Part shown: in pieces, positions 48,925-55,323 of the stretch
Numbering within the stretch: position 1 is the first letter of the stretch
Layout of the letters: each line of letters starts with the position of its first letter
Source of the DNA: Eudoraea chungangensis
GTDB lineage: Bacteria > Bacteroidota > Bacteroidia > Flavobacteriales > Flavobacteriaceae
DNA length: 64,000 nt
Assembly: GCF_029360665.1 (NCBI RefSeq)
Contig: NZ_JARDUB010000004.1
Location: 496,001-560,000 of the forward strand
Reading direction: 5' to 3'
The notes under the pieces: generated by a model
What the model saw: the letters and a program-made list of their open reading frames with translations, nothing else
The model's database searches: none
Told to the model about the DNA's origin: nothing
Translations under genes and position numbers: made by a program

Positions 48925-49794
48925 TCAAACTTTATCTTGTGTGCCATAATAGGCCATAAAAACAAGAATAAATATTTGTAGGCCAAGGCATAAAACAGAT
49001 CCTTCCATGCCAAAATCTCCTCCATTATATAGATTGTTTTCAAATCTATGCCAAACAATTATATTGTAAGTGTTTTCTCCACTTACGTTGAATCCAAAAA
49101 AGGACTGAAACAAATTCCAGCTGAAATGAAAAGCAATAGAAAACCAAAGGTTTTTTGTATAAATGTATCCCAGGCCTAAAATTATTCCGGAAAGAAAAAT
49201 ATTAAACAATCCAAGGATGGTAAAATGGGGGTTTAATACATGCATGAAAGCAAACAGACTGGAGGAGACAAGTAATGCCCAATATATATTTATAGATCCC
49301 AGTAACTTTCGAAGAACATAGCCTCTAAAAATAACTTCTTCCATTACAGAAACCATTAGATATAAAAGCAGGGTCAGTACAACTTCTTGGGTGGCAAATA
49401 CTATTTTTGAAAAAACCACTTCATTTAATGCAAGTAATAGCACACTGCCAATTCCCATAAATAAAAGTCCTAAAGAAAATCCTAGACAAAGCTCTTTTGC
49501 CATTTTATTCCCCTGAAAACCTAATTTTACAATTGCCTCTCTATCTACAAACTTTAAGAAGAGGTACATTACCACAAATGTTCCCAAGAAGCTGCAGAAA
49601 ATGAGTATTAACAATTCATAGGTCGTATGCTGCAGCCCATTATTTGTGAGATCAATATCTAAAAGATGCCCCCCAATATATTGAAACATCCCTCCAATAC
49701 TAATATAGGCTATGATAATTGCACAAATACGCGCCCAAACGTTTGACTCTTTGTTATCCCTTATGCCCAAATCTTTCTTTTGTAAACACAACAT
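48925..49794 (-). CDS. CPBP-family intramembrane metalloprotease (bacteriocin-immunity type)
   Basis: The 289-residue polytopic protein has about eight helices and the Abi/CPBP motifs: EEVIFRGYVLR (motif 1, Glu-Glu-x3-Arg), FAFMHVLNPH (motif 2 His) and IAFHFSWNLFQS (motif 3 His-x3-Asn), all intact. The eukaryotic Rce1 relatives process prenylated proteins; bacterial CPBP proteases next to bacteriocin genes (as in PlnI/SkkI) confer self-immunity. Here two double-glycine-leader peptide genes lie immediately upstream on the same strand, fitting that role. A terminator separates them, so the protease may also have its own promoter. Confidence 0.85.
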   Translation of the reverse strand: MLCLQKKDLGIRDNKESNVWARICAIIIAYISIGGMFQYIGGHLLDIDLTNNGLQHTTYELLILIFCSFLGTFVVMYLFLKFVDREAIVKLGFQGNKMAKELCLGFSLGLLFMGIGSVLLLALNEVVFSKIVFATQEVVLTLLLYLMVSVMEEVIFRGYVLRKLLGSINIYWALLVSSSLFAFMHVLNPHFTILGLFNIFLSGIILGLGYIYTKNLWFSIAFHFSWNLFQSFFGFNVSGENTYNIIVWHRFENNLYNGGDFGMEGSVLCLGLQIFILVFMAYYGTQDKV

Positions 49795-49905
49795 ATTTTC
49801 GTATCAAAATAGAGTTTGTTCCTAATTACGCTACTGATTTATCTGCAATTTAACCTCCTATACTTGGCTGTCTTTTATACTTTATGAAGTAAAGAATAAG
49901 AAAAG

Positions 49906-49925
49906 AAGGGCACCTGAGTGCCCTT
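49906..49925 (-). terminator. Terminator after the peptide genes (leftward)
   Basis: AAGGGCAC-CTGA-GTGCCCTT is a perfect 8-bp stem; read leftward it is followed by CTTTTCTT. It lies 32 bp beyond the stop of the 49-residue peptide gene, so would end or attenuate peptide transcripts before the CPBP gene. Confidence 0.75.
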
Positions 49926-49956
49926 TGTACCTTGCTTAATTCGTTCTAAGCTACAG

Positions 49957-50106
49957 TTAAAAAAATCCTTTGTTAAGACCTTTTTTGAATCCCTGCCAGA
50001 TATAAGGCTCTTCAGCCATATATATTCTGTACAAGTCATAAATTATCCCACCACCATTGACTGCAAGGTTCTCTTCCGTATTTAGTTCTATTATATTATG
50101 TTTCAT
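49957..50106 (-). CDS. Double-glycine-leader peptide precursor, 49 residues
   Basis: The gene is short and may be skipped by gene finders. The product has a leader MKHNIIELNTEENLAVNGG fitting the class II bacteriocin/ComC pattern: Leu at -12, Glu at -8, Val at -4, Gly-Gly at -2/-1. Cleavage would free a 30-residue peptide starting GIIYDLYRIYM and ending FKKGLNKGFF, acidic in the centre and basic, aromatic at the end. A PCAT-type ABC transporter would be needed for processing; none is in the window. It starts 33 bp after the 61-residue peptide gene. An antibacterial or signalling role is inferred. Confidence 0.68.
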   Translation of the reverse strand: MKHNIIELNTEENLAVNGGGIIYDLYRIYMAEEPYIWQGFKKGLNKGFF

Positions 50107-50139
50107 ATCTATCTTTTATTACGTTAATTAAGATTCCTT

Positions 50140-50325
50140 CTATTTCATGGCTCTGCTCCTAGCGAAGTCCGTCACAAAATTAACACCCCCCATATAGCCT
50201 CCACCATATCTAATAAGCGAGCCTAAAACCACCCCTAGGGCTCTTCCAGCACCAGAACCGCCAACTACGGACCTTAAAGAGGATTTTTTCATCCTTTGAA
50301 CACCATATTTTTTCAAATTTTTCAT
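50140..50325 (-). CDS. Double-glycine-leader peptide precursor with glycine zipper, 61 residues
   Basis: The basic leader (KNLKKYGVQRMKKSSLRSVVGG) ends at Gly22-Gly23 with Met at -12, Leu at -7 and Val at -4, as in processed bacteriocins; quoted in part this is MKKSSLRSVVGG. The mature 38-residue part has Gly at 23, 27, 31 and 35 and again at 42/46 and 43/47, a GxxxG zipper seen in two-peptide bacteriocins that form membrane pores, with SGAGRALGVVLGSLIRYGGG as its hydrophobic core. It is paired with the 49-residue peptide and a CPBP protease. Function is inferred; no close known peptide is recognised. Confidence 0.65.
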   Translation of the reverse strand: MKNLKKYGVQRMKKSSLRSVVGGSGAGRALGVVLGSLIRYGGGYMGGVNFVTDFARSRAMK

Positions 50326-50425
50326 TTTTTTCGATTTAAATTAAACAGTTTTGATTGTGCGCTAAGCCAGAATATTCATTTGTGCACATCTTAGCAATAC
50401 GATGTAAAAATGCTAGGAAAGAATC

Positions 50426-50767
50426 TCAAATATTGATAGTGCAACAAGTATTTGTGTTAAAATTTAGTATTCTGTTCATAAATACTCTTCCATAACCTCC
50501 AGTAAGTTCTTCTTTGGCCTCCACATCTAATTCTTCTATATAAAAACCACATTTGAAGGAGGTAATTTCCGTGTAAACATAACTCTGTCTATGTAGATCA
50601 TACATAATGGGGGCATCTAGCGCCTTCATGGTCTCTATTATCCTAAAAACGGTGGCCACAGATACCTGTAGCCTTCTCGCCAATTGTTTTGGCTTACCCG
50701 TTGCCTTTAAACGTATTAGCTGATCTACACGTTCCAAAACTGCCAAGTGCTTTATTATTTGTCTCAT
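50426..50767 (-). CDS. Small helix-turn-helix protein of the peptide locus
   Basis: The 113-residue protein has an N-terminal winged-helix-type HTH (LERVDQLIRLKATGKPKQLA followed by RRLQVSVATVFRIIETMKAL). Then comes a short beta segment (IMYDLHRQSYVYTEIT) and a tail with KEELTGGYG, itself resembling a double-glycine motif, followed by NTNTCCTINI. Similar small HTH proteins stand beside GG-leader peptide genes in other Flavobacteriia. It may regulate the peptide genes 100 bp downstream. The tail is odd and could be a processed peptide, which cannot be decided from sequence. Confidence 0.65.
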   Translation of the reverse strand: MRQIIKHLAVLERVDQLIRLKATGKPKQLARRLQVSVATVFRIIETMKALDAPIMYDLHRQSYVYTEITSFKCGFYIEELDVEAKEELTGGYGRVFMNRILNFNTNTCCTINI

Positions 50768-51110: not shown

Positions 51111-52736
51111 TTAAGGCAACTGGGGGCCTAGTGTATTTAGTTTAGGCAGCGGGGTATTTTTCCAATAGTCGTTTTGCATTTCTTCCATAAAAACAGGCTG
51201 TTTAGGACTATACAGAGGCAATGTCTTTATTAATAATTGTGTTGTATCTTGAATAGCTTTATTGGCTTGAGTTTCTTGTGTAAAAAACTCCCTATACTGA
51301 TGTACATACTCTAAATTTGTTCTATCTAACTTGTTCCCTTCTCTATCTTTTATATTTGTAAAGGAGTAGTTTATTTCAGAGACCTCTACCCTGTCTTTAT
51401 GTTTAAAAAGATAATCCTTTGTTATTTTTGATTCTTCTATCTCTATATAAGGACATACTACAAAGGTTCTTTCATCCTCCAAAAAGTAAAAGTCTTCTAT
51501 GGGTACTAGCCTATCCTTGTAGGTTATTTTAAAATCGGTCTTTTTTATCTTATTTAGCTTGGCGGGCATTTTATTTAGCCTAATTTTAAAAGACTTGTCA
51601 TTTAAGTCAACAATAAACCTAGCCCGGAATGGCCCCGGTCTTTGAAGCATAATCTTGTTATAAAAAGAAATATAGTTTAAGAACATTTTTTCTCTATCTC
51701 CTCTAGCGTATTCCACTTGGATATGATATAGTAGTTCACTATTGGTTTTTTTAAACCCGTCGCTAAACCTCTCTTGCTCATTTACCGCGTAGGTGTTATC
51801 TCCTGGTTTTAATCGTTTAAATAGGCTATAGTCTAGTTGGTGAATAGAAAAATCATAAATATTTATATATACCTTACCTTCCGCTCTATAGTTATCGTCT
51901 ATATAACTAAAATCAATCCTATAGACACTTTCTTTATTAAAATTAGTTTTGCCTACCAGCTTAAATCGATGCTTATCAATGAAGTCTGAAGCAATATCAT
52001 CAATAAACGAAAATGATTCAAGACCATAATTCCTAACAGCATCGTGTAACCTTAACGTAAGAAATTCGTTCCCTTTATCATTTTCCAATTTGGCATAAGG
52101 TATTATCTTTTGAAAACGAGCATAATCGTATGGTTGCCTTGCAAATGAATCTACCTCAAAATTGGTGTTCCTGCTATAGGAATAGAGATGGTAATTATTA
52201 TCTAAAATATCTTTTTTATTGAAGCCCACATCGGCAATTTCTATGATTGCCTCATTTAAATTAGTATAATCTCCATTTTTGACCTGATAATCTCTGTAGT
52301 ATCCTGTTAGTCTAAAAGGATCTATTGGATAGTTTTTTGCAATACTATGAACCGCAATTCTTACTATTTGTTTTGCAGTGAGCTTTTTAAAGTTTGCAAA
52401 AACAATAGCTCCACTTAACTCAAATGCACCCGGCTTTATTAGTATAATATTGCTTTGGCCAACAAAAAGATCATCCAGAAGAACTTCTTGCGTTATATAG
52501 CCCATACACGAGATCTCCAGTGTTTCCCCTACCTCTTTAAACCTAATTGGAATCTTAAAAGTTCCATCTATATTCGTTATAACGCCCAGCGATTTATCCT
52601 TTACCTTAATTGTAGCAAAAGGAACTGCCTCGAGTTGTGTTACATCCACTAATTGCCCAAAAATATAATCGCTGTCTTGTGAAAAGCCCAAGACTGTAAC
52701 GAAAAGAAATAGAAAAAGTACTTTCAACTTATACAT
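51111..52736 (-). CDS. CarboxypepD_reg-like outer-envelope protein (copy 1)
   Basis: The 541-residue protein has a signal peptide (about 1-19, ending VLGFSQ) and an N-terminal CarboxypepD_reg-like domain (25-110: FGQLVDVTQLEAVPFATIKV, DGTFKIPI, SCMGYITQEV). The beta-rich remainder contains LTAKQIVRIAVHSIAKNYPI and LTGYYRDYQVKNGDYTNLNEA, shared with the next gene product. Family members sit in the outer envelope in Bacteroidota; an enzymatic role is not known. It is paralogous with and eleven bp downstream of the 52747-54345 gene, which shows the same order of segments. Confidence 0.78.
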   Translation of the reverse strand: MYKLKVLFLFLFVTVLGFSQDSDYIFGQLVDVTQLEAVPFATIKVKDKSLGVITNIDGTFKIPIRFKEVGETLEISCMGYITQEVLLDDLFVGQSNIILIKPGAFELSGAIVFANFKKLTAKQIVRIAVHSIAKNYPIDPFRLTGYYRDYQVKNGDYTNLNEAIIEIADVGFNKKDILDNNYHLYSYSRNTNFEVDSFARQPYDYARFQKIIPYAKLENDKGNEFLTLRLHDAVRNYGLESFSFIDDIASDFIDKHRFKLVGKTNFNKESVYRIDFSYIDDNYRAEGKVYINIYDFSIHQLDYSLFKRLKPGDNTYAVNEQERFSDGFKKTNSELLYHIQVEYARGDREKMFLNYISFYNKIMLQRPGPFRARFIVDLNDKSFKIRLNKMPAKLNKIKKTDFKITYKDRLVPIEDFYFLEDERTFVVCPYIEIEESKITKDYLFKHKDRVEVSEINYSFTNIKDREGNKLDRTNLEYVHQYREFFTQETQANKAIQDTTQLLIKTLPLYSPKQPVFMEEMQNDYWKNTPLPKLNTLGPQLP

Positions 52737-52746
52737 TGTCCTTTTT

Positions 52747-54345
52747 TTAATTCACATGGTTCTGCAAAGGAGTATTCATCCAATACTCCTTGTAATCTTT
52801 TGGTTTTATAATTGGTTGATCTGTAAAAATAGGTTTGGACTTATCCATAAAAGAGTTATCAAACGGAGCTCTTGAATCTGGTTTTACCCGCTGTACAAAA
52901 TATTCACGGAACTGAAAATACTGCTCTTCGGTCCACTGGTTAATTAAATTCCCCAAGGTGTCACGAACATTCTCAATTCTAATATCTAACAGTTCATTGA
53001 GGTTCTCACCTTTTTTAGCTTCCTCGACTATTTCACTCAACATACCCGATATTTCTTCTTCCTCCATCTTTGGATATAAAAAAACAATGTTTTGTAGTCT
53101 TTCTGCCCTTTCTAATTTCACTCTCTTATTTTGGAACTTTACGTCATAATTAGGCAGGTGATTAGCAGATTTGAATTCTGGAAGATTGTTATACTCAATT
53201 GCAAAACATCGGCGTTTCATGTCCACTGAAATATAATCGGTTGTAAAAACAGGTGGGATATAAAGGGTAAAACTATTATTAAATGAAATATAGTTTAAAT
53301 ACATTTTATCGTTTATTCTTCTATAATCTGTGGTGATATCAAAAATCACCTTCTGTTTATGTCCATGTTTATTCTTTTTTCGCGTCTCATTCCATCTTTT
53401 CTCGTCGTACATGGTATACTCTAGTTTGTGAATGGAATAATCCCATTTGGATATGTAAATGGTTCCATTTGCCCTATAATTAGGGTGAAACACTTTAAAA
53501 GTTATGGTGTACAGTTCTTCATTGTCTTTGCTAGTATCACTGCTTCTCAGGAAGAAATGATTTTTAACAAAATTGGTTTTTAGGGTTCCAATAAAATCAT
53601 AGGAATCCACATTATAATTTCTAATGGCATCATGAACTCTTAAAATTCGAAATTCGTTACCACCATCAATATCCAAATAGGCTTTTTTAATAATTTTTCG
53701 ATTAGAGTCATAGTCATAAGCAGACCGTGCCATAGAATCTTGTTTAAAATCTGTATTTAAATCGAAATTGAATATACTGATCTCAGACGTACTATCATCT
53801 AGTTGGTCAATCCCTTGATCAAAGACTTCCAAAATAGCTTCGTTAAGATTAATATATTCGTCATCTTTAAATTGATAATCTCGATAGTACCCTACAGTAG
53901 AGAAAGATGTGGAAGCAAAATTATTAGGAATTGCATCAATGGCTCTCTGAACGATTTGGGATGCATTAAGTTTTCTACGGTTTTTGTTTTTTGCGGTAAC
54001 AACGGTTTCTTGCAAACTAATAACACCTGGTGCTAATGAAATTAAATTGAGTTGGTCCTGATTTAAGTCCGCTATTGAAATTTCTTTCGTCTGATATCCC
54101 ATAGACGAAAACTCAATGATATTGCCATATTGTTTTAAGACTGAAGGAATTCTAAAACCGCCATCGGCATTGGTTATAACCCCTAAAGCCCTGCCCTTTA
54201 TCCGAACACTTGCGAAGATTACTGGTTCATTAGTCTGCTGATCAATCAGCTTCCCTTCTATAAAGTCTTGCTGCTGAGAAAACGTAGTAGACGAAAACAG
54301 TAGAAGGACAAACAAAATTTTGTAAAAACAGAGATTAACCTTCAT
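52747..54345 (-). CDS. CarboxypepD_reg-like outer-envelope protein (copy 2)
   Basis: The 532-residue paralogue of the adjacent protein has a signal peptide (about 1-23, ending SSTTFSQ) and a CarboxypepD_reg domain (28-115: IEGKLIDQQTNEPVIFASVR, DGGFRIPS, SSMGYQTKEI). LNASQIVQRAIDAIPNNFAS and VGYYRDYQFKDDEYINLNEA align with copy 1. The YYRDYQ..D.Y.NLNEAI signature is shared by both and may define the family. Tandem duplication followed by divergence is the simplest history. It is cotranscribed with the orphan plug protein upstream (38-bp gap). Confidence 0.78.
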   Translation of the reverse strand: MKVNLCFYKILFVLLLFSSTTFSQQQDFIEGKLIDQQTNEPVIFASVRIKGRALGVITNADGGFRIPSVLKQYGNIIEFSSMGYQTKEISIADLNQDQLNLISLAPGVISLQETVVTAKNKNRRKLNASQIVQRAIDAIPNNFASTSFSTVGYYRDYQFKDDEYINLNEAILEVFDQGIDQLDDSTSEISIFNFDLNTDFKQDSMARSAYDYDSNRKIIKKAYLDIDGGNEFRILRVHDAIRNYNVDSYDFIGTLKTNFVKNHFFLRSSDTSKDNEELYTITFKVFHPNYRANGTIYISKWDYSIHKLEYTMYDEKRWNETRKKNKHGHKQKVIFDITTDYRRINDKMYLNYISFNNSFTLYIPPVFTTDYISVDMKRRCFAIEYNNLPEFKSANHLPNYDVKFQNKRVKLERAERLQNIVFLYPKMEEEEISGMLSEIVEEAKKGENLNELLDIRIENVRDTLGNLINQWTEEQYFQFREYFVQRVKPDSRAPFDNSFMDKSKPIFTDQPIIKPKDYKEYWMNTPLQNHVN

Positions 54346-54383
54346 ATTACATCATTTTCGAGAGGAATTATTGGTATGAGATG

Positions 54384-55034
54384 CTACTTTAAAGTAATAA
54401 TTAATACTCCTGAGGCTCCTCTTGCTCCGTACAGAGCGGCACCCTCGCCCTTTATTAATTCTATATCCTTTAATTCGTCCACATTAATATTATCAATACT
54501 ATCAACATAGTTTCCATCTACCACAAACAGAGGTGTCTGGTCCCCACTTACTGGACCTCTTACCACTATGGAGGTACCATTAACGCTGACCCCTGTGAAT
54601 TTCTCTCGTATTACCTGATAAATATCTGAGTATTCAGAATAACTTTTTACCCCAATATTTCTATAGACATCGATGTCTAAAATATAGCCGTACTCTATAA
54701 GTTTACTTTGTTTAAAAGTTTCATTATTTGCAGAAAACTTAAAATCCAAAGTTGTCTGTCCATTGTAAACCTCGCTTTCAAGACCATATTCTTCCGAAAA
54801 GATGCTTATAATATCGGTCTCTTCTGGTATCCGAATTTTATACGCTCCTCTTTTATTGGTTCTAGATCCTGTCTTTAAGGAATCTACAAAGACGTACGCT
54901 TTGGGAATTGGCATACCCTCTGCGGTTGTAACACTTCCACTAATTCTAACCATCTTTATATTGCTTCGTTGTGCTTTTAGCACAGTAAAGGATAAAGACA
55001 ATAGGACTACAGAAAACAATAGTTTTCTTTTCAT
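54384..55034 (-). CDS. Orphan CarboxypepD_reg + TonB-plug protein
   Basis: The ATG at 55034 gives 216 residues with a signal peptide (KRKLLFSVVLLSLSFTVLKAQ). Residues 33-110 form a CarboxypepD_reg-like fold (SGSVTTAEGMPIPKAYVFVD), and residues 130-216 a TonB-dependent-receptor plug (GVSVNGTSIVVRGP, PLFVVDGNYVDSIDNINVDE, GEGAALYGARGASGVLIITL). A beta-barrel of 600-900 residues should follow in a SusC-like receptor, but the gene ends right after the plug. It is not a truncated gene by visible damage: the stop lies at a natural plug end. It may act as a binding or signalling protein in the outer membrane. Confidence 0.8.
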   Translation of the reverse strand: MKRKLLFSVVLLSLSFTVLKAQRSNIKMVRISGSVTTAEGMPIPKAYVFVDSLKTGSRTNKRGAYKIRIPEETDIISIFSEEYGLESEVYNGQTTLDFKFSANNETFKQSKLIEYGYILDIDVYRNIGVKSYSEYSDIYQVIREKFTGVSVNGTSIVVRGPVSGDQTPLFVVDGNYVDSIDNINVDELKDIELIKGEGAALYGARGASGVLIITLK

Positions 55035-55323
55035 TGGCAACTACTTCATTTAAATTAATTAAAATTATTAATCCTAAATACCAAGGTCTATATACTGGCA
55101 ATCCTCCTTAAGATCGCAATTGTTTAATGGATTTCAAAAGAAGTGCCCTATTTTTCTGAATACATTAACAATATAAAAGTTGAGCAAACCCAGGACTGGT
55201 ATAAAAAGTGAAAAGCGCCTATTTCCAAAATCAAGAAAGAATTTGAGCCTAAATAATGGCAAAGACAGCCAAGTCGCCTTTCCAAGGAAAACGTAAAAAT
55301 TTTCTGTGCTTTCAGAAATTATT

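Follow-up and report, generated by a model that had tools for sequence, protein, structure and literature searches.

Class IIb two-peptide bacteriocins of the plantaricin EF/JK type are encoded as adjacent peptides with double-glycine leaders and carry GxxxG motifs. The locus described here resembles them in several respects. It has two adjacent peptides with double-glycine leaders, 38 and 30 predicted mature residues and GxxxG in both; the pair is inherited together, being adjacent in the window (the whole 64,000-nucleotide stretch of the Eudoraea chungangensis genome that was analysed) and at loci L159 and L193 of two other genomes; and a CPBP/Abi-type immunity candidate with conserved catalytic motifs lies beside the peptide genes, with a C39 exporter and accessory protein in the genome (nearby in L159). 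It differs in its host, a Gram-negative flavobacterium, in its unlinked exporter, in a small winged helix-turn-helix (HTH) protein found instead of a two-component system, and in peptides that match no Pfam or NCBIfam model at E up to 10. The class is diverse, and a match to a known family model is no requirement of it.

Within the Bacteroidota, bacteroidetocins share with the cassette a double-glycine-leader peptide and a PCAT with a double-glycine peptidase, and the available part of their description gives one cysteine-bearing peptide, a TM protein, a thiol oxidoreductase, with no immunity gene apparent (PMC6671954). The cassette has instead two precursors without any cysteine, an HTH protein and a CPBP, and no thiol oxidoreductase is found among its ORFs; the term "helix-turn-helix" occurs 0 times in the text of that paper, as far as it was available (PMC6671954). 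A PCAT tied to gene regulation, a feature that the cassette would share, is described for HetC of Nostoc, whose authors propose that a substrate is cut and that its N-terminal part, remaining in the cell, interacts with a transcriptional regulator (PMC10986499, available in part). There, within the accessible portion of that paper, the substrate is not known, no fused HTH-leader protein appears and the setting is a cyanobacterial differentiation pathway. We found no regulator with an HTH-leader fusion in the literature, judging by titles and abstract openings among the matches listed (e.g., the best 15 of 6,556).

The four ORFs of the cassette were all found intact on the minus strand where the initial annotation had placed them, and the 33 bp between the two peptide genes was confirmed. 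The features, in window coordinates, are:

50426..50767, minus strand: HTH protein ORF, 113 aa; winged HTH at residues 1 to about 68
50495..50545, minus strand: leader-like segment of the HTH protein, residues 75-91, ending LTGG at Gly90-Gly91; GG codons 50500-50495
50429..50494, minus strand: C-terminal tail that follows the GG in the HTH protein, residues 92-113, 22 residues
50140..50325, minus strand: pep1 precursor, 61 aa; predicted leader 1-23 (GG 22-23), predicted mature peptide 38 aa
49957..50106, minus strand: pep2 precursor, 49 aa; predicted leader 1-19 (GG 18-19), predicted mature peptide 30 aa
49906..49925, minus strand: terminator-like hairpin between pep2 and CPBP, fold z -2.5
48925..49794, minus strand: CPBP (Rce1-like) membrane protease, 289 aa; possible immunity gene

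The hairpin splits pep2 from CPBP, so that CPBP is possibly not co-expressed at the same level; a hairpin occupies the equivalent place after pep2 in L193 (fold z -5.7). A promoter scan returned 3 candidates against 8.1 in shuffles, and a tRNA scan of the window found none.

We read the cassette, with a probability of about 0.72, as the cargo-and-immunity part of a C39-exporter two-peptide bacteriocin system, in which export in trans, killing, immunity, regulation and docking are all inferred. What is observed is the gene content, its conservation, the leader match, the presence of an exporter and the linkage in relatives. The class-IIb-like reading had been put forward before this work and is largely supported by conservation, leaders, exporter and synteny; killing activity has not been shown. 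Against it stand the lack of activity, expression or mass data and the separation of exporter and cassette in this genome. Also weighing against it are points detailed elsewhere in this text: a pep1 zipper that composition alone could readily give, a CPBP family found mostly apart from leader peptides, the rarity of the peptide family, the trio without an HTH in L193 and the hairpin ahead of CPBP. In outline, pep1 and pep2 would be produced jointly, each with a double-glycine leader; the genome's sole PCAT, with its HlyD adaptor encoded on another contig, would process and export them; and the two would pair through GxxxG as a two-peptide membrane-active bacteriocin, with CPBP protecting the producer. 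The HTH protein would act as a local regulator of the system, and its leader-like site may serve for binding to the exporter's peptidase domain or for cleavage by it, tying expression to export capacity. The locus is of value as a specific, conserved candidate for a two-peptide bacteriocin in the Flavobacteriaceae, for which both peptides, an immunity candidate and an exporter can be named.

Both precursors had been credited with double-glycine leaders, and these are well supported: against a leader profile pep1 and pep2 score 8.8 and 18.4, where the 99th percentile of controls is -2.0. The profile was made from 49 leaders of small ORFs adjoining PCATs in related genomes, with 556 GG sites from mechanical ORFs of 200 aa or more as controls, and covers positions -16 to -3 only, leaving the glycines unused. 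It was curated by hand: a filter kept 56 of 91 candidates and demanded suitable residues at -4 and -12, so these two columns are partly selected, while rows not leader-like in appearance were removed and one row was added by hand.

A glycine zipper had also been described at Gly23/27/31/35 of pep1. The positions are correct, but Gly23 closes the leader and falls outside the mature peptide, whose zipper is therefore 27/31/35; pep2 has a conserved GxxxGxxxG of its own (G39/G43/G47), which the initial annotation had missed. The motif arises in 25% of shuffles of mature pep1 and 2.2% of those of mature pep2, and is lifted above chance because its glycines are invariant in three divergent homologues of each peptide. 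G27/G31/G35 and G39/G43/G47 are thus kept in the window, L159 and L193, as are R39 and Y40 of pep1 and D24, Y26 and F40 of pep2. More generally, GxxxG occurs in 61% of the candidate mature peptides at these loci against 38% when shuffled (n = 103, counting both window peptides). Among the 101 other candidates, the best partners of pep1 and pep2 both lie in L159 (z 5.4 and 7.4 against shuffles).

The proposal that the same pair would be found beside CPBP genes elsewhere was borne out in two other genera, where pep1, pep2 and CPBP keep the same order. L159 reads HlyD, HTH, two other peptides, pep1-pep2, CPBP and a C39 (PCAT) exporter; in L193, from genome G376, the homologues of pep1 and pep2 precede CPBP with no HTH or PCAT within the 13 kb fetched, and a PCAT-HTH locus (L062) lies elsewhere in that genome. 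The L193 trio (L193:7589-7955) lies a short way downstream of three tRNA genes (Arg, Pro, Ser), and tRNA genes are a common integration site. As a separate observation, a 69-aa ORF at L159:2619-2828 resembles that locus's two other precursors fused and has two leader-GG segments in a single reading frame. A third arrangement, in a Croceivirga MAG (L059), is HlyD-PCAT-HTH-pep-pep-CPBP, with an additional ORF following the HTH and a CPBP 37% identical to that of the window.

The peptide family itself is rare in the Flavobacteriaceae. Searching 397 genomes of the family with pep2 gave strong matches in three (the window's own, G314, which holds L159, and G376), two of which, the window's genome and G314, had supplied the search model; four further genomes gave five weaker matches (E 7e-4 to 2e-3), and within its own genome the search gave no further copy of pep2, the second match reaching only E 0.76. 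Clusters of PCAT, HTH and peptides are, as such, not rare. The HTH is matched at E 1e-6 in 49 of the 397 family genomes, and many of the loci fetched combine HlyD, PCAT and HTH with one or more double-glycine peptides, in an order that varies. Within the genus, 7 of 10 genomes have a match, the window's own included, and the closest HTH (L016, 64% identical) sits in HlyD-PCAT-HTH-pep-pep, with a PCAT 62% and a HlyD 36% identical to the PCAT/HlyD pair of the window's genome. Elsewhere, L057:8440-10301 holds two similar peptide pairs in tandem, which suggests duplication of pairs within the cluster.

CPBP had been described as an intact protease, and it is one by its motifs: it matches the Rce1-like Pfam model at E 3.2e-19 and keeps the EExxxR, FxxxH and H/N motifs. 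A close CPBP is found in 24 of 397 family genomes. Across 23 loci (22 of the 24 matches, plus L059), double-glycine peptides lie upstream in four (the window, L159, L193 and L059) and are absent there from the other 19. A single clade of peptide-linked CPBPs was considered and is unsupported by the tree, in which the window pairs with L159 and L059 with L193 without the two pairs being joined. The higher HMM rank of the peptide-linked CPBPs is partly circular because three of the four built the model. A role as immunity gene is plausible by position only, and protection has not been shown.

The prediction that an exporter would have to be sought elsewhere in the genome proved sound. A search of the genome (17 contigs, 99.97% complete) gave one Peptidase_C39 match, C1:619489 (E 4.1e-36), with HlyD adjoining, and the cassette lies on another contig, C4, so that the exporter is present but in trans and, as had been noted, none is near the peptides. 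The locus (L004) encodes a 739-aa PCAT (L004:7678-9897) beside a 389-aa HlyD; a six-frame list of the surroundings, judged by eye, revealed no small ORF with a leader.

The cassette's HTH matches generic HTH models of Pfam/NCBIfam only below their cut-offs, and a PDB fold search gave no match at E 0.001 or below, its top rows being mostly winged-HTH regulators. Its GG site scores 0.3 in the leader profile, a value reached by 0.36% of the 556 control GG sites; the GG is the best-scoring register of the protein, and 2.4% of segment shuffles score as well. With L at -4 and -12 and I at -15, but K at -7 and A at -8, it belongs among the weaker leader-like cases. In seven exporter-linked, GG-bearing HTHs of the same subfamily the tail measures 12-38 residues. 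AF2 models of the window HTH and of that in L081 both give a confident winged HTH with a low-confidence C-terminus, pLDDT being below 50 at nearly all residues after the GG; the leader-like part is modelled as a weak helix in the former and as weak strands in the latter. By these models the segment is probably accessible, and its conformation is not settled by them.

To place this protein in its family, HTH relatives were collected from the family and from wider searches, in which 42 of 395 genomes of the class and 23 of 395 of the order gave matches. Loci were fetched for 48/57 (family), 47/58 (class) and 22/24 (order) among the matches listed; they held 123 HTHs, of which 10 were dropped as 85% or more identical and 113 analysed. 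An HTH was called linked when an exporter or HlyD lay in the roughly 6 kb of flank that was retrieved, some contigs being short, and 49 of the 113 qualified. A double glycine (GG or AG) followed by a tail of 8 or more residues is present in 36 of these 49, against 8 of the 57 HTHs without exporter or leader peptides nearby (Fisher p 4e-10). When a leader score above -5 is also demanded, the counts are 32/49 and 3/57. The difference is seen both in the closest relatives, at E under 1e-30 (27/31 linked, 4/17 unlinked), and in more distant ones (9/18 and 4/40). The seven HTHs that lie beside leader peptides only, the window's included, all have GG or AG, and four of them score between -4.7 and -10.4. 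Among the linked HTHs lacking both (13/49) are short or disrupted proteins, additional copies within one cluster and two with SG.

Selection within the sample should be considered. Both search models, A2 and A3, were built from GG-bearing HTHs, and the 23 rows of alignment A3 comprise the window's HTH and 22 exporter-linked ones picked for GG or AG, so its invariant glycine is there partly by choice; among linked HTHs outside those 22, 14 of 27 have GG or AG with the tail. Chance origin of the GG in this family was considered and rejected, as the register test, given below, and the contrast between linked and unlinked HTHs argue against it. The cassette's HTH is not incidental: its relatives are often exporter-adjacent and many have a leader-like double glycine. 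Two sets of paralogues were seen in passing. L015 and L018-L023 of the window's genus encode a separate HTH of 94-95 aa with KG, SG or RG in place of GG and with no exporter or leader peptides nearby, which may be an orphan with a lost signal. In the window's subfamily, a second HTH paralogue without GG lies between HlyD and PCAT at L054:1723, L058:6896 and L064:8543.

Since linked HTHs often bear a leader-like GG at which the profile peaks, the HTH may be a client of its own exporter. We propose tentatively, and at somewhat less than even odds, that in the Bacteroidia such HTHs are clients of C39 exporters, a cut or bound tail reporting a free, working exporter and the tail itself perhaps being a pheromone. 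Nothing shows cleavage, and the window HTH fits only weakly at two key positions. The main competing account, that the double glycine forms a turn in the structure of the winged-HTH C-terminus and is no C39 site, we regard as a live possibility, if not a probable one. Leader bound to the C39 domain of LahT is helical, according to the part of that study available (PMC6363468), and a turn would fit the low-confidence strands, with no helix, that the L081 model gives the leader-like segment. GG or AG is moreover kept in 14 of 57 unlinked relatives, including the eight with a tail of 8 or more residues; the remaining 43 lack it, however, and their post-wing part is shorter (median 22 against 42 residues). 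In 29 of the 42 GG/AG HTHs that have an exporter or peptides close by, the profile, which is blind to the glycines, nevertheless finds its best register in the whole protein at the GG, although the most distant linked HTHs score poorly and make up most of the failures; 27 of 36 tabulated HTH sites exceed the 99th percentile of controls. In the same 42, -4 is I/L/V in 40, -12 is L/I/M/V in 36 and -8 is E in 25.

Position -7 speaks for a turn, being often charged (K, E) in the window's subfamily. The ComA consensus is L(-12), E(-8), L(-7), and charged residues at -7 blocked cleavage in LahT, as reported in the available portion of that paper (PMC6363468). The HTH of L071 meets the consensus fully and that of L074 has I at -7. 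Several peptide leaders of the subfamily also have a non-hydrophobic -7 (S, T, Q; N in the window's pep2), from which we infer that local exporters may tolerate it. The linked/unlinked contrast is visible on the tree as well and argues against a mere turn: tree-independent pairs are concordant in 9 cases and discordant in 1, with 12 lacking contrast (p 0.011), or 8, 0 and 10 when the leader score is demanded (p 0.004); under strict exporter linkage the ratio is 10 to 2, and 9 to 1 with the leader score. About 66 residues underlie this tree. Across three hand-picked groups, the first 12 residues of the tail are 38%, 38% and 63% identical, the HTH domain 73%, 61% and 67%. The pattern points to a design seen repeatedly, with regulators of peptide-export operons apparently bearing the signal by which the exporter recognises its substrates; if the HTH is indeed a client, this would explain how expression could be coupled to export in producers without a two-component pheromone circuit, and would provide a one-protein export checkpoint, possibly with a built-in pheromone.

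It is unlikely, in our view, that pep1 and pep2 are pheromone-like signalling peptides with the HTH in a response circuit. PCATs do also export pheromones, as far as the sources available in part describe them, the HTH's relatives are often exporter-adjacent and no modification enzyme is found among the cassette's four ORFs, all of which would suit signalling; neither a sensor kinase nor a peptide importer is among those four ORFs, however, the peptides adjoining related HTHs are very diverse, and a GxxxGxxxG conserved in each peptide together with CPBP fits a pore pair with immunity better. That the cassette is a decayed remnant, unused since its separation from the exporter, would suit an exporter in trans and an HTH low among leader-like tails (0.3), but is quite unlikely with all four ORFs intact, leaders and zippers kept against distant homologues and a similar unlinked trio in G376 that also has its PCAT locus elsewhere.

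Unrelated to the cassette, three consecutive minus-strand ORFs (541, 532 and 218 aa) occupy 51111-55040 of the window; the 541-aa ORF has a CarboxypepD_reg-like domain, and the 532-aa ORF resembles, by eye, a paralogue of it.
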